The notes under the pieces were generated by a model that was not told where the DNA came from, ran no database searches, and saw only the letters and a program-made list of their open reading frames with translations. A program made the translations under genes and the position numbers. A stretch of DNA of 64,000 nt, from NCBI RefSeq assembly GCF_009659535.1, contig NZ_VJZZ01000001.1, forward strand, positions 124,001 to 188,000. Direction: 5' to 3'. The DNA is from Aggregicoccus sp. 17bor-14 (GTDB lineage: Bacteria > Myxococcota > Myxococcia > Myxococcales > Myxococcaceae). Shown one piece after another: positions 11,251 to 18,847 of this stretch (its first letter is position 1; each line of letters starts with the position of its first letter).

Positions 11251-11675
11251 GCTCCGGCGCGGTGCGCACGGTGCGCGTGGTGGCTGCGCTGATCCCCCAG
11301 CGCGACGCGCCCGGGCGCTTCCTCGTCCAGCAGCGGCTGCCCGGCGGAAGCCGCGCGCTGTTGTGGGAGTTCCCCGGCGGCAAGGTGGAGCCGGGCGAGA
11401 GCGAGCCCGAGGCGCTGGCGCGCGAGTGCCGCGAGGAGCTGGACGTGCAGCTCGCGGTGGGCCGCCGCCTCTGGGAGGGCCGCCACAGCTACCCGGATCT
11501 CACGGTGGAGCTGGTGCTCTACGCGGCGCGCATCGAGTCCGGTGAGCCGCGGCCGCTCGGCGCGCAGGCGCTGCGCTTCCTCACCATCCCGGAGATGCAG
11601 GCGCTGCCCTTCTGTGAGGCTGACATCCCGCTGCTCGAGGAGCTCGCCCAGGGAAGGCTGGGCCCGCTCGGCTGA
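11247..11675 (+). CDS. Nudix hydrolase, MutT family
   Basis: 142-residue MutT-like pyrophosphohydrolase. The Nudix box is complete: GGKVEPGESEPEALAREC followed by REELDV. It keeps the catalytic REUxEE core, with Asp in place of the usual Gly near the end. The PGGSRALLWEFPGGKVE lead-in and the C-terminal FLTIPEM/LPFCEADIPLL segments are typical of 8-oxo-dGTP diphosphatases of the MutT type, which sanitise the nucleotide pool. The GTG at 11247 overlaps the upstream stop. The gene's own stop shares one base with the next ATG. Substrate is inferred from the family. Confidence 0.9.
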   Translation: MSSGAVRTVRVVAALIPQRDAPGRFLVQQRLPGGSRALLWEFPGGKVEPGESEPEALARECREELDVQLAVGRRLWEGRHSYPDLTVELVLYAARIESGEPRPLGAQALRFLTIPEMQALPFCEADIPLLEELAQGRLGPLG

Positions 11676-12565
11676 TGCTGCGCCGCACCTTCCAGCACAT
11701 CCCCGGAGTGGGGCCGTGGCGCGAGAAGGACCTGTGGGCGCGCGGCATCCGCACCTGGGATGACTTCCCCGCGGGCGGCCCGGCGGTCGCTATCTCGCGC
11801 AAGCAGGACGCGGTCGCACGCGAGCGCATCGCCCAGGCCCGTGAGGCACTCGAGCGACGGGATCTCGCGGCGCTCGCCGCGCTCCTGCCGCCGCGCGAGC
11901 ACTGGCGCCTGTACCCCGAGTTCGCCGAGTCGGCGGTGTTCTGGGACATCGAGACGGACGGGCAGGAGCTGCAGCGGCCCACGGTGGTGAGCCTCTTCGA
12001 CTCCACCGGCCTGCACGTCTTCATCCAGGGCCGCAACATGGACGCGCTGCCCGAGGCGCTCGCCGCCCGGGCGCTGTGGGTGACCTTCAACGGCTCCTGC
12101 TTCGACGTGCCCGTGCTGCGCGACTACTTCGGCGCCGAGCGCTTTCCCACGCCCGCGGCCCACATCGACCTGCGCTTCGTCTGCAAGCGGCTGGGGATGG
12201 GGGGAGGGCTGAAGGAGATCGAGGACGACCTGGGCCTCGGCCGCCCGCCGCACATGCGCGGCGTGAACGGCTGGGACGCCGTGCTCCTGTGGCGCGCCTA
12301 CCGGGCGCGCGGGGACGTGGAGGCCCTGCGCTTCCTCGTGGAGTACAACCTCTACGACTCCTTCCAGCTGCGCACCCTGATGGACACGGCCTACAACCGC
12401 GGCGCGGACGACCTGAACTGCGACGTGCCGCGCCTTCCCGTGTTCGATCGCGGTGACGTGCTCTACGACGTGAGCAAGCTGCTGCTGGAGCTCGGCCCCA
12501 CGCGGCGCGACCTGAACGTCATCGAGCGGATCCGCCGCCAGAGCCGGGATCTGCGAGACGACTGA
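11675..12565 (+). CDS. YprB-type RNase H-fold (DEDD) exonuclease-like protein
   Basis: 296 residues. The short N-terminal segment FQHIPGVGPWREKDLWARGI resembles a helix-hairpin-helix. A DEDDy-exonuclease-like RNase H domain follows: ExoI WDIET (about residue 90), ExoII FNGSCFDVPVL (about 134) and ExoIII YNLYDSFQL (about 230), which together supply the expected D, E, D, D metal ligands. This is the YprB ribonuclease-H-like family, presumed to be a 3'-5' nuclease; no biological substrate is established from sequence. It is translationally coupled to mutT by a one-base overlap and is the last gene of the operon. It converges on the DUF5996 gene with a 28-base gap. Confidence 0.85.
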   Translation: MLRRTFQHIPGVGPWREKDLWARGIRTWDDFPAGGPAVAISRKQDAVARERIAQAREALERRDLAALAALLPPREHWRLYPEFAESAVFWDIETDGQELQRPTVVSLFDSTGLHVFIQGRNMDALPEALAARALWVTFNGSCFDVPVLRDYFGAERFPTPAAHIDLRFVCKRLGMGGGLKEIEDDLGLGRPPHMRGVNGWDAVLLWRAYRARGDVEALRFLVEYNLYDSFQLRTLMDTAYNRGADDLNCDVPRLPVFDRGDVLYDVSKLLLELGPTRRDLNVIERIRRQSRDLRDD

Positions 12566-12593
12566 GGGGCCGGGCGGAGGGGGGGAGGGCGCT

Positions 12594-13565
12594 TCAGGAG
12601 GGCGCCGGGACCTCGTCCGTGGGCTGCTCGGCGGCGACCTGCCCCACTGCTACAGGTCTGATCAACGGACGCTCCAGCGCCTGGCGGTCCCAGCCGGCCC
12701 GGTCGGCCGCCGCGGCATAGGTGCTCTCGAGGAAGTCGAAGACGGTCCGGCGGGGATCCGCGGAGGTGCGCACGGCCTCGTAAGGCAGGAGGAACTCGCC
12801 GAACGAGGCGTTGTAGTGCGCCTCCGGGGGGCGCACCGGGGCCTGGGCGAGCCCGTCGGGAGCCGGCGCCGCGTACGCGTAGAACGCAGCCTCCGGGAAC
12901 GGACCGCCGCCGGGCCAGAAGCCCGCGCTGATGACCTCTTCGCAGTAGGACTCGCGCGTCACCGCGTCCGCGCCTCGGCGCTCGGGCGCACGGCGGCCCG
13001 CGAAGCGCGTCACGGCCAGATCGAAGCTTCCCCAGAAGAAGTGCACCGGACTGACCTTGCCGGTGAAGCGCGCCCGGAACTCCTTGAGCAGGGCGTCCGC
13101 CTGGACGAGGACCTGGAACCAGCGGCGCACGGCTTGCGGATCATAGGTCCGGTGGACGCGGTCGTCGCTCAGCGACTCGGTCGCATCCGGGATCTCGCAG
13201 ACCCGATCAGAGAGCCGGACCTCGATGCCCAGCCCGTGCAGGGTGGCCAGCAGCTCCCGGTAGAAGTCGGCGACCGACTGCGAGCCCAGCTCGCGCTCGT
13301 GGCGCTCGCCATCGCTCGTCTGGATGCGCAGCTCGTGCGCGAGGAAGTCGAAGTCGACCTCGAAGGTCCGGTCGCCGTACGGGATCGGCGAGGTCGTGAG
13401 GCCGCGGCTCGTCACGTAGAGCGCGACGTGCCAGTAGTGGTTGAGCATCGGCGAGAGCGCCAGGCGCACCTTGCCCACGATCTGCGTGTACCGGTGCAGG
13501 GTCTCGTACGTGGGCTTCCACTCAGCGAGCGGCAGTGCCGGCCACGCCTCGATCGCGGTGCTCAT
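12594..13565 (-). CDS. DUF5996 family protein
   Basis: 323-residue cytosolic protein of the DUF5996 family, function unknown. Recognisable conserved stretches are LPLAEWKPTYETLHRYTQIV, SRGLTTSPIPYGDRTFEVDF, SPVHFFWGSFDLAVTRFAGR and SAGFWPGGGPFPEAAFYAY. The many conserved His, Trp and Asp residues suggest an enzyme, but I can name no reaction. The ATG start has GAGG six bases upstream. A 7-bp palindrome and a strong 10-bp hairpin lie 10-45 bases upstream. The gene begins a patch of short single-gene units unlike the operons on both sides. Confidence 0.88.
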   Translation of the reverse strand: MSTAIEAWPALPLAEWKPTYETLHRYTQIVGKVRLALSPMLNHYWHVALYVTSRGLTTSPIPYGDRTFEVDFDFLAHELRIQTSDGERHERELGSQSVADFYRELLATLHGLGIEVRLSDRVCEIPDATESLSDDRVHRTYDPQAVRRWFQVLVQADALLKEFRARFTGKVSPVHFFWGSFDLAVTRFAGRRAPERRGADAVTRESYCEEVISAGFWPGGGPFPEAAFYAYAAPAPDGLAQAPVRPPEAHYNASFGEFLLPYEAVRTSADPRRTVFDFLESTYAAAADRAGWDRQALERPLIRPVAVGQVAAEQPTDEVPAPS

Positions 13566-13574
13566 CCAGGACCT

Positions 13575-13609
13575 CGCTCCTGAGGAGCGGGCGCGCCGTG
13601 CGCCCGCTC
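13575..13609 (-). promoter_or_regulatory. Nested palindrome and hairpin upstream of the DUF5996 gene
   Basis: A 15-base palindrome (arms 13575-13581 and 13583-13589, one central base) partly overlaps a perfect 10-bp stem (13585-13594 with 13600-13609, 5-base loop). It sits 10-44 bases before the DUF5996 start and about 100 bases after the stop of the upstream lipoprotein gene. It could be an operator for the DUF5996 gene or a terminator of the upstream transcript. No U-tract is present. Confidence 0.4.
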
Positions 13610-13709
13610 GGGTGTCAGTCGCGAAGCTTGGCCTGCGCAGACGGTCGGACCATTGGACCGGAACGCAGCCGGGCGAGAGCTCGGGCCGTCGCGAGCCTGG
13701 TCGCTGGGC

Positions 13710-14267
13710 TCAGTGCCGGCGGTGTCGGCGGCTGGGCTTTTCCTTCTTCGGGGCCGGGGCAGGCTTTTCCTTCTCGCCAGCCACCAGGAACTCGAAGCGC
13801 TGGTCCGGGACGTGCCGGCCGGCCGCGTCCGTCATCGTCGCGCCTGTCTGGGCGTCCACGACCAGGGTGTACTTGTGGCCCGCCTTCAGGGGCTCCGGCA
13901 GGGCGATCTTGTAGACGAAGCCCGCGTCCGAGTCCGTGGCCTCGTCGTCGGAGACCATCGCGCGGCCGGCCTCGTCGAAGAGGCGCACGCGGTGGTTGCG
14001 CAGCCCCAAGTCGGTGCGGAGCTCGAGGCCCTGCGTAGGCTCGATGACGGGGCGCTCGGAGCCGCCCACGGCGACGCCCTGGGTGCCCGCGTCGAGAAGC
14101 TGCTCGGACAGCGTGAAGGTGACCACGTCCGGGATGCTGGCAGGCGCCTCGCCGGCATCTCCAGCGGCGACGGGGCCGCCGTCCGGAACGCCCGCGGGCT
14201 GCTCGCGGCAAGCGAGCGGGGCGACGAAGACACAGCAGGCGAGCATCGTGAGTGAGCGCAGGCGCAT
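13710..14267 (-). CDS. Predicted lipoprotein with Ig-like/SbsA-type domain
   Basis: 185 residues with a lipoprotein signal ending in APLAC (Cys about residue 20). An Ala/Gly/Asp-rich spacer follows, then a beta-rich domain from about residue 45 to 160. Motifs such as RVRLFDEAGRAMVSD, YKIALPEPLKAGHKYTLVVD and the terminal DQRFEFLVAG resemble bacterial Ig-like (SbsA/Big_5) domains that end in an F-x-F-type strand. The C-terminal 25 residues are Lys/Pro/Arg/His-rich (APAPKKEKPSRRHRRH). Probably a surface or periplasmic lipoprotein of unknown role. It is divergent from the STN lipoprotein gene across a 373-base gap. Confidence 0.75.
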   Translation of the reverse strand: MRLRSLTMLACCVFVAPLACREQPAGVPDGGPVAAGDAGEAPASIPDVVTFTLSEQLLDAGTQGVAVGGSERPVIEPTQGLELRTDLGLRNHRVRLFDEAGRAMVSDDEATDSDAGFVYKIALPEPLKAGHKYTLVVDAQTGATMTDAAGRHVPDQRFEFLVAGEKEKPAPAPKKEKPSRRHRRH

Positions 14268-14640
14268 GGTGCGCGGAACCTACGTGCTGGGCCCGGGTCT
14301 TTGAAGAACGGAGTCAGCCCCGGGGCGCACAAATGGGTCGCTCGGCCGGTCCGCACACCCCATTCCCCCTCTGACCAGACGTCGGATAAGATGCGTTATG
14401 TAAACTTAGCTCGTGGATGGCCGGCGTGGCTCTGGGGCCTGGGCTCTCGAGCCGAACCGCAGCCGCTCGCCTGCTCCGGGTGTCCGTCGGCGGGCGTCCA
14501 GCCAGCTCGCGAACGTCGGTCGTGGTCCTGGGATACGACGGCTTGTGTGACGACACTTCCGCGGGCGGCGTCACGGTTGCCGTGACGCCCTGCCCCTGTT
14601 CTCGCCAGGTTCCTTGCAGCTCAGGGAGGCCCGCCGGTCC
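14268..14640. other. 373-bp intergenic region with an AT-rich patch, between divergent lipoprotein genes
   Basis: Largest gene-free stretch of the window, shared by the upstream regions of two divergent lipoprotein genes. It holds no credible ORF and no tRNA-like fold that I can see. The notable part is an AT-rich island at about 14383-14410, unusual in this GC background, with GATAAG at 14385 and TAAACT at 14401. It is a plausible promoter or regulator-binding area, but I could not assign a convincing -35/-10 pair on either strand. Confidence 0.5.
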
Positions 14641-15267
14641 ATGAGGATGAGCTCGATTGTTCGTGGTGCCGTACTGGGCGTCGCCTTGGGCCTCACTGCG
14701 TGCGCGCACTCGGATTCGCCTCATGCGTTGGGCGGCACTCCTCCAGGCCCGGCGGCCGCCCCTGCGGAGGTCCCGGCCCGCATCGACGTCGTGTTCGACA
14801 ACGAGGACATCTACGAGGCCTTCCGGGCGCTCGCGCAGCAGGCCCGGATCAGCCTTTTCCTCGACCCGGACATCGAGGGTCGCGTGACCTGGTCGGCGCA
14901 CGCCGTTCCCTGGCCGGACGCCCTTGCGGCGCTCGCCCAGGTGCATCGACTCCGCGTCGAGCGATTGACCGTCCACGGAGTCGCAGCCCCGTGCTTCTGG
15001 GTGTCCCGGACATCGAGCCCCCCAGCGCCTCAGACCGAGTTCACCGGCACGCGCGTCAGCCTCCGGTTCGATGACACCCCGATTCGGGAAGCAGTCAGGC
15101 AGCTCGCGGAGGCCGCGAAGACGCCCATCGTGGTGGACGAAGGCGTCCCGGACGTGCCGATCACGCTTCACCTCTGGCTGCCGTGGGACCTCGGCCTGGC
15201 GCACCTCGCGCAGAAGTACGCGCTGCACCTCGTCCGGACGAACGGCACCATCCACGTGGCCCGCTGA
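14641..15267 (+). CDS. Lipoprotein with two tandem secretin/TonB short N-terminal (STN, N0) domains
   Basis: 208 residues. A lipoprotein signal ends at LTACAH (Cys about residue 21). Two STN/N0-like domains follow. The first (about 48-120) has IDVVFDNEDIYEAFRAL, FLDPDIEGRVTWS and VPWPDALAALAQVHRLRVE. The second (about 135-208) has VSLRFDDTPIREAVRQLAEA, IVVDEGVPDVPITLHLW and DLGLAHLAQKYALHLVR. Such domains form the N0 part of PilQ/GspD secretins and of TonB-dependent transducers, but no secretin or barrel domain follows here. I infer a free outer-membrane-anchored adaptor. ATG 14641 is chosen; ATG 14647 is an alternative. It converges on the next gene with an 18-base gap. Confidence 0.8.
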   Translation: MRMSSIVRGAVLGVALGLTACAHSDSPHALGGTPPGPAAAPAEVPARIDVVFDNEDIYEAFRALAQQARISLFLDPDIEGRVTWSAHAVPWPDALAALAQVHRLRVERLTVHGVAAPCFWVSRTSSPPAPQTEFTGTRVSLRFDDTPIREAVRQLAEAAKTPIVVDEGVPDVPITLHLWLPWDLGLAHLAQKYALHLVRTNGTIHVAR

Positions 15268-15285
15268 GGCACGGCTCCGGGCCGA

Positions 15286-15621
15286 TCACCCGGGAACCTC
15301 CGGGATGACGTGTCGGAGGTTCGGGTCCCCTTCCGGAAACGTGACGCCCAGGGAGACGTTGCGCGGAGTGTCCGCCGCCTGCTCCGCGGCCTCGAGCAGT
15401 GCGGCGGAGACCTCGTCGAGCATGACCCCCGCCGCACGGAGGCGCTGCGCGAAGTCGCCGAGGCGCGCGGTCTCGAGCTCGGCCTGGAACATGAAGTAGA
15501 GCCCGGAGAATGGCCGTGCGGCGACGAGCCATCCGCACGCGGAGATGGCCTCCTCGATGCGTGCGATGGCCGCGGTGCGGTCACCACGAGCGACGGCTGA
15601 CAGCGTGAGCCGGCCCTTCAT
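15286..15621 (-). CDS. Small conserved hypothetical protein
   Basis: 111-residue soluble protein that I do not recognise. It begins MKGRLTLSAVARGDRTAAIA and continues with an amphipathic helix (ARIEEAISACGWLVAARPF) and a beta-strand pair (GLYFMFQAELE). The central helices contain LRAAGVMLDEVSAALLEAAE. The mixed alpha/beta ferredoxin-like pattern is a guess. Support for coding comes from a good Shine-Dalgarno (AAGG about nine bases before ATG), neighbour-like codon use and absence of a better ORF on the other strand. It lies 30 bases downstream of the YgiD-like gene on the same strand. Confidence 0.6.
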   Translation of the reverse strand: MKGRLTLSAVARGDRTAAIARIEEAISACGWLVAARPFSGLYFMFQAELETARLGDFAQRLRAAGVMLDEVSAALLEAAEQAADTPRNVSLGVTFPEGDPNLRHVIPEVPG

Positions 15622-15651
15622 CGGTGCACCTTCACCTCGCTCCAGAGTGCT

Positions 15652-16518
15652 TCAGACGTTGCTGCCGTCCCAGGGCGTCGTGGGCGGCACCGCGGCGGCT
15701 CCCTCTCCGTTCGCCCTGCCCGCAGCCGCGCCGTCGGCGCCCAGGGTATAGGCCGTCATGGAGAGCGAGCCGAAGGCGTAGCCGTCCACCAGCACGTCCG
15801 CGGGCTTGCCGGCGGCGCTCGCGAGCCCTGCCAGGTACAGCAGCGGGATGAAGTGCTCGGGCGTCGGCGCTGCGGCCTTGAAGTCCTGGTGGCCGGCCAC
15901 GGCCGGGAGCTCCGAGGGACCCCCGGCCATGATCTCGCGCACCCGCTCGTCCACGTGCTGGGCCCAGGCGAAGCCCGTCTCCGGCTTGTGCCAGTCGATC
16001 GCCCGCAGGTTGTGCACCACGTTGCCACTGCCCAGGATGAGCACCCCGCGCTCGCGTAGCGGTGCCAGCTTCGCGCCGAGCTCGAGGTGGTAGTCGAAGG
16101 GCTTGAGCGAGTTGATCGACAGCTGCACCACCGGCACGTCCGCCGCTGGGAACGCGTGGACGAGCACGGACCAGGTCCCGTGATCCAGCCCCCAGCTGTC
16201 CACGTCCGCGCCCACCCAGTCGGGCTTCGCAAGCTCCGAGACCTCGTCGGCGAGCTCAGGCAGCCCGGGCGCCGGGTACTGCACGTCGAAGAGCGCCTGG
16301 GGAAAGCCGTAGAAGTCGTGGATCGTCTTCGGCTTCGGCATCGCCGTGACGGCCGTCGCGTTGATGTACCAGTGCGCCGAGACGACCAGGATGGCCCGGG
16401 GCTTCGGGACCGCCCTGCCGAACGCGCGCCAGGCCTCGGTGTACCGGTTGGCCTCCAGCGTGTTCATCGGGCTGCCGTGTCCGAGGAAGGCCGCGGGCAT
16501 CAGATCTCGTGGGGTCAT
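15652..16518 (-). CDS. YgiD-like extradiol (4,5-DOPA) dioxygenase
   Basis: 288-residue class III extradiol dioxygenase of the LigB/YgiD family, which cleaves catechol-type rings such as DOPA using a bound metal. Likely metal ligands lie in LGHGSPMNTL (His about 12) and VVSAHWYI (His about 48), with further conserved segments GNVVHNLRAIDW and SWGLDHGTWSVLVHAFP. The start is taken at ATG 16518 rather than 16551 because GGAGGAG stands nine bases upstream and the family N-terminus begins there. Residues beyond about 260 are an Ala/Gly-rich extension. The physiological substrate is unknown. Confidence 0.9.
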   Translation of the reverse strand: MTPRDLMPAAFLGHGSPMNTLEANRYTEAWRAFGRAVPKPRAILVVSAHWYINATAVTAMPKPKTIHDFYGFPQALFDVQYPAPGLPELADEVSELAKPDWVGADVDSWGLDHGTWSVLVHAFPAADVPVVQLSINSLKPFDYHLELGAKLAPLRERGVLILGSGNVVHNLRAIDWHKPETGFAWAQHVDERVREIMAGGPSELPAVAGHQDFKAAAPTPEHFIPLLYLAGLASAAGKPADVLVDGYAFGSLSMTAYTLGADGAAAGRANGEGAAAVPPTTPWDGSNV

Positions 16519-16690
16519 CGCTGCGCACTCCTCCGGCCCGAGCCGGCGCACCTCAGGGACTGCGGGTGAATATGGGCATTCTCACCGGTGAACCCAGGGT
16601 CTCGACCAGAAGGCCAAACCCCTGAAATCTGACGCGCCGCGGCGAGGTTGACTGACCAGCAATGGTTGGGGGTCCGGCCAACTTCAGCGC

Positions 16691-16719
16691 TTGACCCCCC
16701 TTCCGGCATCCCGCAGAAA
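16691..16719 (+). promoter_or_regulatory. Weak candidate promoter for the S46 peptidase gene
   Basis: TTGACC at 16691-16696, 17 bases, then CAGAAA at 16714-16719 (3 of 6). The position, 38 bases before the start codon, is suitable but the -10 match is poor. Confidence 0.35.
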
Positions 16720-16756
16720 CACAGTCCCGATTTCGGGACCCCTGAAAGGAACCAAC

Positions 16757-18847
16757 TTGAAGCGACTGCTCGTCGTGGCATCCCTGGCGCTCGGAGTGAG
16801 CGCGTCAGCGGACGAGGGAATGTGGACGTACAACAACTTCCCCTCGCAGCAGGTGAAGCAGAAGTACGGCTTCGAGCCCACGCAGCAGTGGCTCGACAAC
16901 GTGCGCCTCTCGTCGGCCCGGCTCGCGGGCGGTTGCTCGGCCAGCTTCGTGTCCGAGAACGGCCTGGTGATGACGAACCACCACTGCGCGCGCGGCTGCG
17001 TCGAGCAGCTCTCCACGGCCAAGCAGAACTACCTGGACAACGGCTTCTACGCCAAGACCGAGGGCGAGGAGCGGCAGTGCCCGGCGATGGAGCTCAACCG
17101 GCTGGAGAAGATCACCGACGTCACCGACCGGATGGACAAGGCCACCCAGGGCCAGAGCGGCGCCGCGTACGCGACCGCGCTCAAGGCGGAGATGGCGAAG
17201 ATCGAGAAGGAGTGCGCCACCAGCGACGACGTGCGCTGTGACGTGGTGACGCTGTACCAGGGCGGCCGCTACAACCTGTACCAGTACCGCCGCTTCCAGG
17301 ACGTGCGCCTGGTCTTCGCGCCCGAGCACGCCATCGCCTTCTTCGGCGGCGACCCGGACAACTTCGAGTTCCCGCGCTACGACCTCGACGTGTCGTTCCT
17401 GCGCGTCTACCAGAACGGCAAGCCGGCGAAGATCGATCACTACTTCAAGTGGTCCAAGGCGGGCGCCAAGGACGGCGAGCTCACCTTCGTGTCCGGCCAC
17501 CCGGGCAGCACCAGCCGCAACCTGACCGTGGCCCAGCTCGCGTACACCCGCGACGTGCTGCTGCCCAAGGGCATGGAGCGCCTCGGTGAGATGCGCGGCA
17601 TGCTGACCGAGTACATGAAGCGCGGGCCCGAGCAGAAGCGCACCGCCAGCAACCTGCTCTTCGGCACGGAGAACTCGCTCAAGGTCTACATCGGCCGCCA
17701 GGAGGCCCTGACGGACTCGGACTTCTTCGCCAAGAAGGTGAAGGAGGAGAACGACCTGCGCGCCAAGATCAACGCGGACCCGAAGCTGAAGGAGCAGTTC
17801 GGCGGCGCGTGGGATCAGATCGCCCAGGCGGTGAAGCAGGCGAAGAACATGCGCGTGGAGGTCAGCCAGATCGCCATGCTGCAGGGCCTCAACGAGCCGC
17901 TGTTCCAGAACGCGCTGCGCCTGGTGCGGTACGCAGACGAGCTCGCCAAGCCCAACGAGCAGCGCCTGCGCGAGTACGTGGACTCCAACGTGCCCGCGCT
18001 CAAGGCGCAGATCGGCAGCGCGGCGCCGCTCTATCCCGAGCTGGAGATCGCCCGCCTCACGCACAGCCTCACCAAGATGCGTGAGGACCTGGGGCCCAAC
18101 CATCCCTTCGTGAAGAAGGTGCTGGGCAACGAGAGCCCGGCGGCGCTCGCCACGCGCCTGGTCAAGGGCACCCGCATGTTCGACCCCAAGGTGCGCCTGG
18201 CGCTGCTCAAGGGCGGCAAGGCGGCGGTGGACGCGAGCCACGACTCGATGATCGAGCTGGCCAAGCGCCTGGACGCGGACTCGCGCCAGGTGCGCAAGGC
18301 CTACGAGGAGGGCCCCGAGGCCACCCTCGACAAGGCCAGCGAACTCATCGGCAAGGCGAAGTTCGCGGCCTACGGCACCGGCATCTACCCGGATGCGACC
18401 TTCACGCTGCGCCTGTCCTACGGCTCGGTGAAGGGCTACCAGGAGAACGGCAAGCGGGTGCAGCCGTTCACCTACATGGGCGGGACCTACGATCACGCCA
18501 CGGGCGAGGACCCCTTCAAGCTGCCGCCCAGCTGGCTGCGCGCGCGCGGCAAGATCAACGCCCAGACCCCGATGAACTTCGTGACCACCAACGACATCAT
18601 CGGCGGCAACTCCGGCTCGCCCATGGTGAACAAGGACGCGGAGATCGTGGGCCTCATCTTCGACGGCAACATCCAGTCGCTCGGCGGTGACTACGGCTAC
18701 GACGAGAGCGTGAACCGTGCGGTCGCGGTGCACAGCGACGCCCTCATCGAGGCGCTGGACAAGGTGTACGGCGCCAAGCGGGTGCTCGAGGAGCTGCGCC
18801 CGGGCAGCACCCCGCAGGCTCCGGTCAAGGCGCCCACCCCGGGGTAG
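16757..18847 (+). CDS. S46 family dipeptidyl-peptidase (DPP7/DPP11 family)
   Basis: 696-residue exported serine peptidase that releases N-terminal dipeptides. After a signal peptide (residues 1-18, cleavage near SASA-DEG) it has the S46 His segment MTNHHCARGC, the Asp region around EFPRYDLDVSFLR, and the nucleophile in GGNSGSPMV with the following IFDGNI segment. The residue 18 after the catalytic Ser is Gly, the DPP7-type state, rather than the Arg linked to acidic-residue preference in DPP11. The TTG start has GAAAGGA six bases upstream. The gene converges on guaA with a strong terminator between. A likely role is digestion of peptides from prey or medium. Confidence 0.95.
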   Translation: MKRLLVVASLALGVSASADEGMWTYNNFPSQQVKQKYGFEPTQQWLDNVRLSSARLAGGCSASFVSENGLVMTNHHCARGCVEQLSTAKQNYLDNGFYAKTEGEERQCPAMELNRLEKITDVTDRMDKATQGQSGAAYATALKAEMAKIEKECATSDDVRCDVVTLYQGGRYNLYQYRRFQDVRLVFAPEHAIAFFGGDPDNFEFPRYDLDVSFLRVYQNGKPAKIDHYFKWSKAGAKDGELTFVSGHPGSTSRNLTVAQLAYTRDVLLPKGMERLGEMRGMLTEYMKRGPEQKRTASNLLFGTENSLKVYIGRQEALTDSDFFAKKVKEENDLRAKINADPKLKEQFGGAWDQIAQAVKQAKNMRVEVSQIAMLQGLNEPLFQNALRLVRYADELAKPNEQRLREYVDSNVPALKAQIGSAAPLYPELEIARLTHSLTKMREDLGPNHPFVKKVLGNESPAALATRLVKGTRMFDPKVRLALLKGGKAAVDASHDSMIELAKRLDADSRQVRKAYEEGPEATLDKASELIGKAKFAAYGTGIYPDATFTLRLSYGSVKGYQENGKRVQPFTYMGGTYDHATGEDPFKLPPSWLRARGKINAQTPMNFVTTNDIIGGNSGSPMVNKDAEIVGLIFDGNIQSLGGDYGYDESVNRAVAVHSDALIEALDKVYGAKRVLEELRPGSTPQAPVKAPTPG

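Follow-up and report, generated by a model that had tools for sequence, protein, structure and literature searches.

What does a protein do that carries two secretin-type N0 domains and no pore of its own? The question is raised by one gene of the window, i.e. the whole stretch of 64,000 nucleotides analysed here (71.6% GC), which a first-pass annotation had described as coding for a lipid-anchored pair of N0/STN domains and nothing else. The sequence bears this description out (Table 1). The tandem-N0 protein is made of two N0/STN domains on a predicted lipid anchor, with no other domain recognised: up to E 10 there was no Pfam match to Secretin, Secretin_N (N1), AMIN or TonB-barrel in its 208 residues, and domain 2 extends to the last of them. 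It is not a secretin, and it displays neither the plug and barrel that follow STN in TonB-dependent transducers nor the cytoplasmic anti-sigma domain and membrane helix that precede it in FecR-type regulators. Sequence and profiles place a lipobox signal peptide, a tether and N0 in this order, with lipidation as a prediction. The residue after Cys21 is Ala and there is no Asp at +2; lipoproteins without Asp at this position are expected at the outer membrane, where the tandem-N0 protein is probably held, to judge from that residue.

Table 1. Features of the tandem-N0 locus, in window coordinates.
Feature	Position	Strand	Basis
Shine-Dalgarno-like AGGGAGG, 11 nt 5' of start codon ATG	14623..14629	+	read off sequence
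Tandem-N0 lipoprotein gene (P0001), 208 aa, stop codon included	14641..15267	+	ORF and codon-position GC
Lipoprotein signal peptide, ends LGLTA/C; lipobox L-T-A-C, Cys21	14641..14703	+	sequence
Short Pro/Ala/Gly-rich tether, residues 22-43	14704..14769	+	sequence
N0/STN domain 1, residues about 44-113	14770..14979	+	PilQ-N0 and short-family N0 profiles; domain model
Inter-domain linker, residues 114-133	14980..15039	+	sequence
N0/STN domain 2, residues 134-208, PilQ-type FTG lead-in	15040..15264	+	PilQ-N0 profile, TIGR02515, PilQ comparison

The GC content of the frame by codon position (0.72/0.52/0.85) is close at the third position to that of the neighbouring genes (0.86-0.97). A 313-aa frame on the opposite strand (0.79/0.57/0.71) looks spurious. 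For the promoter and terminator, a scan with the sigma-70 consensus yielded no match.

Profile searches indicated that both segments are of the N0 type, at Pfam scores under the curated cut-offs. Pfam GspD_N0 (PF21305) matched the protein in two stretches at E 1.1e-5 (25.6 bits, cut-off 27) and STN (PF07660) reached 18.5 bits (cut-off 28.4), while the NCBIfam models of PilQ (TIGR02515) and HofQ gave E 3.8e-11, also in two stretches, and E 7e-10, respectively. The scores of these last two models are far under their full-length cut-offs, as expected because the protein corresponds to a fragment of them, and the best TIGR02515 stretch aligned residues 136-207 with model positions 1-72. No T3SS secretin family matched in the Pfam or NCBIfam searches. 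A PilQ-N0 profile built from 31 distinct PilQ sequences, that of the same genome included, scored 25.5 bits for domain 1 and 32.9 bits for domain 2, and a second profile, built from the N0 of eight short secretin-less N0-N1 proteins, scored 33.9 and 12.5 bits. Domain 2 is, at this level, the more PilQ-like of the two: it starts with FTGTRVSLRF, and the N0 of the same genome's PilQ with FTGKKVTFEF. Domain 1 has in common with PilQ N0 a VPW motif. The two domains are 35% identical and align with a score of 79, which places the doubling far above chance since none of 2000 shuffled controls (mean 25.1, sd 4.9) reached that score. When the whole genome was searched with STN the tandem-N0 gene was missed, because its domains are so divergent, and with GspD_N0 both domains were matched below the cut-off (E 0.198 and 0.365). 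Taken as a whole, the similarity points to PilQ, i.e. to the type IV pilus, over T2SS.

Structure prediction agreed weakly with this assignment. The full-length single-sequence model (pLDDT 41.2) showed alternating strands and helices in both segments, and its top Foldseek rows were engineered ferredoxin and ACT-type folds, with no N0 title among the best 50; at this pLDDT such matches are uninformative, yet they are not in favour of N0. Domain 1 was also modelled from a 15-row alignment of itself and 14 others (domain 2 and 13 PilQ), which biases the model to the N0 fold since PilQ N0 was contained in it. Its pLDDT was 54.8, and Foldseek placed Neisseria PilQ N0 at the top (E 0.062, with no match at E<=0.001) and titles of secretins, TonB receptor or anti-sigma regulators in 12 of the 14 top rows. 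With VIA-align, rows 1-33 of the best 50 were titled secretins or secretin complexes, TonB-receptor signalling domains and anti-sigma regulators, and the best match had Z 5.5 over 62 aligned residues (rmsd 4.2), a Z under 8 possibly reflecting just a common arrangement. The first-pass annotation had made its reading depend on the N0 fold of both segments: the predicted structures lend weak backing to that fold for domain 1, and the N0 identity of domain 2 is suggested by its sequence.

We then considered which surface of N0 has been kept. In Neisseria, the C-terminal domain of PilP is described as binding PilQ N0 with perturbation mainly of helix 1 and strand 1 (PMC3441751). Over 36 columns per half and with interrelated PilQ rows, the mean identity of domain 2 to the 31 PilQ was 0.409 in the first half (strand 1-helix 1-strand 2) and 0.238 in the second, the latter value being possibly depressed by one inserted residue of that half omitted from the alignment. 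This pattern reverses the usual trend, since both the PilQ-PilQ pairs under 75% identity (0.640 and 0.685, n=257, with the first half more identical in just 51) and the pairs of short-family proteins with PilQ (0.387 and 0.562, n=248) favour the second half. Compared with the eight short N0-N1 proteins, first and second halves gave 0.254 and 0.325 for domain 1 and 0.279 and 0.204 for domain 2. Because the half contacted by PilP is the better kept, domain 2 may have retained the ability to bind PilP or a similar ligand.

On these grounds, the tandem-N0 protein is probably a helper, a mimic or a leftover of the type IV pilus machinery. Among these, we tentatively favour a periplasmic lipoprotein that would present PilQ-like N0 surfaces to PilP or a similar partner. 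It would offer the docking surface of a secretin without the pore, on a short outer-membrane tether. Strand 1 and helix 1 of domain 2, if not of both domains, would attach to the HR-type domain of PilP or to a comparable N0 ligand such as GspC, and in the type IV pilus machine the protein would thereby act on the junction of PilQ with PilMNOP as a competitor, a cap or a bridge. That it binds, what it binds and in which direction it acts are all inferred. The sequence does not discriminate between the decoy, adaptor and pilotin-like roles that the first-pass annotation had suggested. In favour of this docking role, both domains score with PilQ N0, domain 2 has the FTG lead-in and the better-kept first half, and lipoprotein N0 domains are described as acting in other envelope machines (DotD, PMC2951367; VirB7, PMC3093366). 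The 6.92-Mb genome, moreover, encodes both PilQ (C9:13854) and PilP (C9:11813, about 2 kb upstream of PilQ on the same contig). Against it, domain 1 shows the ordinary and thus opposite half-pattern with the 31 PilQ (0.209 and 0.309), both domains lie on long branches, and the models are of low confidence, the full-length one having matched other folds. A bolder version, which we consider unlikely, makes the protein a new kind of regulator of type IV pili: with its two PilQ docking domains anchored to the outer membrane, it would seize PilP by domain 2 and, by domain 1, either another N0 ligand or an adjacent ring of N0, and would set where, or in what number, pilus machines are completed.

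The surroundings speak against a docking role as well. The six flanking genes span 11675-18844 and comprise, going upstream from the tandem-N0 gene, a divergent gene for a 185-aa lipoprotein-like product, DUF5996 and RNase_H_2 and, going downstream, a convergent 111-aa gene without family, a LigB-type dioxygenase and a peptidase S46. With its upstream neighbour divergent and the downstream one convergent, the gene stands as the single-gene unit that had been supposed at first, and no secretion, pilus, sigma, FecR or dot/icm gene is found among the six. The 185-aa neighbour (13710-14267, minus strand) begins in a lipobox-like manner (PLAC) and matched no Pfam family at E<=0.01; the 111-aa protein (15286-15621, minus strand) also lacks a Pfam family. 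Farther in the window there are genes for an EngA-type GTPase (7783), a BamB-type beta-propeller (10090), GMP synthase (18943, minus strand), a VTT-domain protein and a radical-SAM methylthiotransferase-like protein, and none of those with a Pfam family among the nine frames scanned (three had no family, and one NAD-GH match was possibly in a wrong frame) is a pil or gsp gene. In the surroundings examined, the tandem-N0 gene has no tie to pilus genes, to type II secretion or to sigma regulation. Elsewhere in the genome, a GspD-type N0 lies at C11:207213.

We searched for orthologs at increasing taxonomic distance, the counts always including the source genome itself. Among 60 relatives, 51 matched at E<=1e-3, 50 of them partially; the genus was represented by one genome, the source, whose sole match was the protein itself. 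In the family, 32 of 96 genomes matched at E<=1e-5 (the best 32 candidates or fewer scored per genome) and, in the phylum, at least 25 of 195 did at E<=3e-6 (the best 16 or fewer). A second short protein matching both domains was not found in the 60 relatives, nor among the best candidates of the 96 family and 195 phylum genomes under strict E limits, and this absence counts against the docking role. The presence or absence of the protein across the family, proposed by the first-pass annotation as a check, is answered in part: strict scoring of the best candidates found the tandem form in the source genome alone among 96, and searches of the family and phylum with such limits and part of the candidates could miss a remote tandem protein. 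The frames with matches reaching well into both domains measure 731-1102 aa and, where read, are mostly PilQ by sequence; one of them, a 776-aa frame (G040:C1:656958), reads as an unrelated protein. In frames under 500 aa the matches stayed within domain 1, apart from two that went on into the linker (G025, to residue 121) or slightly beyond it (G175, to residue 141).

Other collections gave a similar picture. A first scan of a contig collection (37 stretches) found no relatives and a second one found 36 in 137 stretches, every one with a single PilQ-type N0 and none in tandem. A plasmid search returned one record, a secretin-like gene within a T2SS locus; PADLOC gave no match up to E 1, and in PHROGs phage protein IV alone was matched, weakly (E 0.0016). 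No tandem-N0 lipoprotein appeared in the titles or abstract starts of the open-licence PMC literature among the matches listed. As a side observation, a Myxococcus-type PilQ N0 was met on a contig (L096, 4001-4417, plus strand) whose title is Comamonas sp. KCTC 72670, which makes a wrong name or a contamination of that record probable. In a tree of 41 domains, neither domain 1 nor domain 2 was firmly placed on its long branch. Since no ortholog was found, conservation cannot vouch for a function; since a single genome of the genus was covered, absence elsewhere is weak evidence.

This distribution is in favour of the main rival explanation, in our opinion somewhat improbable, that the gene is a lineage-specific leftover, i.e. 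a duplicated and shortened PilQ-type N0 drifting without a present function. Besides the confinement to one genome and the long branches, it would account for the lack of promoter or terminator matches in the sigma-70 scan, and the 111-aa neighbour was likewise found in the source genome alone (1 of 36 genomes, E<=1e-6). However, the frame is intact, with a coding-like third-position GC, a good Shine-Dalgarno and a clean lipobox; N0-like character is kept in both domains, and the confinement itself is weakened by the sampling of the genus. A second rival, unlikely, is a self-assembling envelope lipoprotein whose N0 and tether would oligomerise into a ring or a lattice having nothing to do with pili, as reported for Xanthomonas VirB7 (PMC3093366, PMC6536674) and proposed for DotD. 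The lipobox, flexible tether and N0 do come in the same build order, but the source genome has no match to the VirB9 family (PF03524) at E<=1, the flanking genes include none for secretion, the [T/S]EIPL motif does not precede either N0 (PAEVPARI stands before domain 1 and PQTEFTG before domain 2) and the sequence is PilQ-like.

It is quite improbable that the protein is a regulatory STN which, in the manner of TonB transducers, binds the periplasmic portion of an anti-sigma regulator of the FecR type. Four FecR-domain loci above the cut-off in the genome, a faint FecR_C match in domain 2 (11.4 bits, cut-off 24.4) and a domain 1 model that resembles the signalling domains of PupR and FecA/FpvA about as much as secretins would suit it, and PupR-type sigma regulators are described with an STN domain at the end (PMC7186176); nevertheless, there is no sigma or FecR gene at the flanks and the sequence scores go to PilQ and HofQ. 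The TonB-transducer route looks weak too: besides PilQ, the whole-genome STN search produced one sub-threshold STN-membrane protein (a single-STN protein at C1:224482) and two chance-level matches, although the absence of further STN proteins is soft because that search also missed the tandem-N0 gene. Known type IV pilus pilotins (Tgl/PilF) have a TPR fold. A pilotin-like chaperone escorting subunits of PilQ to the outer membrane, a role in which a predicted lipoprotein with secretin kinship could stand, is highly improbable as no TPR model of Pfam matched the protein.

The outcome matters under either of the two leading explanations. If PilP is bound, the assembly of a trans-envelope machine could be controlled by a detached copy of the docking domain of its secretin, and a simple two-domain protein would be at hand for the study of N0 recognition. 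If the gene is a leftover, it is still a record of PilQ N0 moving freely as a module among myxobacteria, beside the short N0-N1 and STN-repeat membrane proteins of relatives.

Among known systems, PilQ N0 is the best sequence match for the whole protein and for domain 2, with its FTG lead-in. Unlike PilQ, the tandem-N0 protein lacks AMIN, N1 and the secretin pore, has N0 doubled and carries a predicted lipid anchor. A C-terminal helix is reported for PilQ N0 (PMC3441751), for which there is no room in domain 2 because the protein ends there. The Legionella Dot/Icm component DotD is described as a lipoprotein of the outer membrane in which the folded portion is an N0 domain (PMC2951367), as predicted here, but it has a single N0, with 6-11% identity to secretin N0 according to that report, and works with DotC/DotH, for which no gene was recognised at the flanks. 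Xanthomonas VirB7 (X-T4SS) shares the build order, with a lipobox, a flexible tether and a C-terminal N0 through which it is reported to oligomerise (PMC3093366, PMC6536674), and differs by its single N0 and its VirB9-binding and [T/S]EIPL motifs (PMC6536674). For want of VirB9 and of that motif, the tandem-N0 protein falls outside the X-T4SS VirB7 family, and a T4SS part was rejected.

Closer to the source genome, short N0-N1 proteins (L035-L041, L044, L047-L049; e.g. L037, 4943-5452, plus strand) consist of a signal peptide, a PilQ-type N0 and N1, measure about 160-170 aa in those read, lack a secretin domain and, counted as frames shorter than 500 aa, are present in 29 of the 96 family genomes (a 466-aa frame of G078 was left out as a probable cut PilQ); a search of the source genome matched PilQ alone. 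They are also secretin-less PilQ-like pieces, and their N0 profile scores domain 1 best, but N1 is present (by Pfam in L037), N0 is single and no clear lipobox was seen in those read. No neighbours are common to the window and these loci: the comparison of 326 frames with 13 loci gave three matches at E<=1e-4, all to the tandem-N0 gene itself, and none at 1e-8. Secretin-less STN-repeat membrane proteins with one to three STN domains (L108-L113, L117, L120) are found in several families of Myxococcota. They share the tandem STN without secretin and differ by their length, beta-repeat and hydrophobic C-terminal stretches, by the lack of the VPW motif and, in the loci examined (L108 and L120), by an ECF sigma gene close upstream. 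In L120 (1632-4221, plus strand; source genome, C1 about 223131-225720) the sigma gene is followed by a small Cys/hydrophobic protein and a one-STN protein, and in L108 (2274-5229, minus strand) by a protein with two STN domains; both STN proteins have a glycine/valine-rich repeat, by eye like bactofilin-type beta repeats, and the unit looks like cell-surface signalling without a TonB receptor. A further lipobox protein with one STN domain (L114, 2728-3666, plus strand) is cut by the contig end and may for that reason be an incomplete lipid-anchored secretin. As a class, STN proteins without a secretin are no rarity among relatives and single-N0 lipoproteins have been published, so that the first-pass view of STN domains without a barrel as unusual stands for the tandem-N0 lipoprotein, seen here only, and not for the wider class. 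What appears to be new is thus the tandem, PilQ-type and unlinked N0 lipoprotein, single-N0 lipoproteins being already known in DotD and Xanthomonas VirB7.
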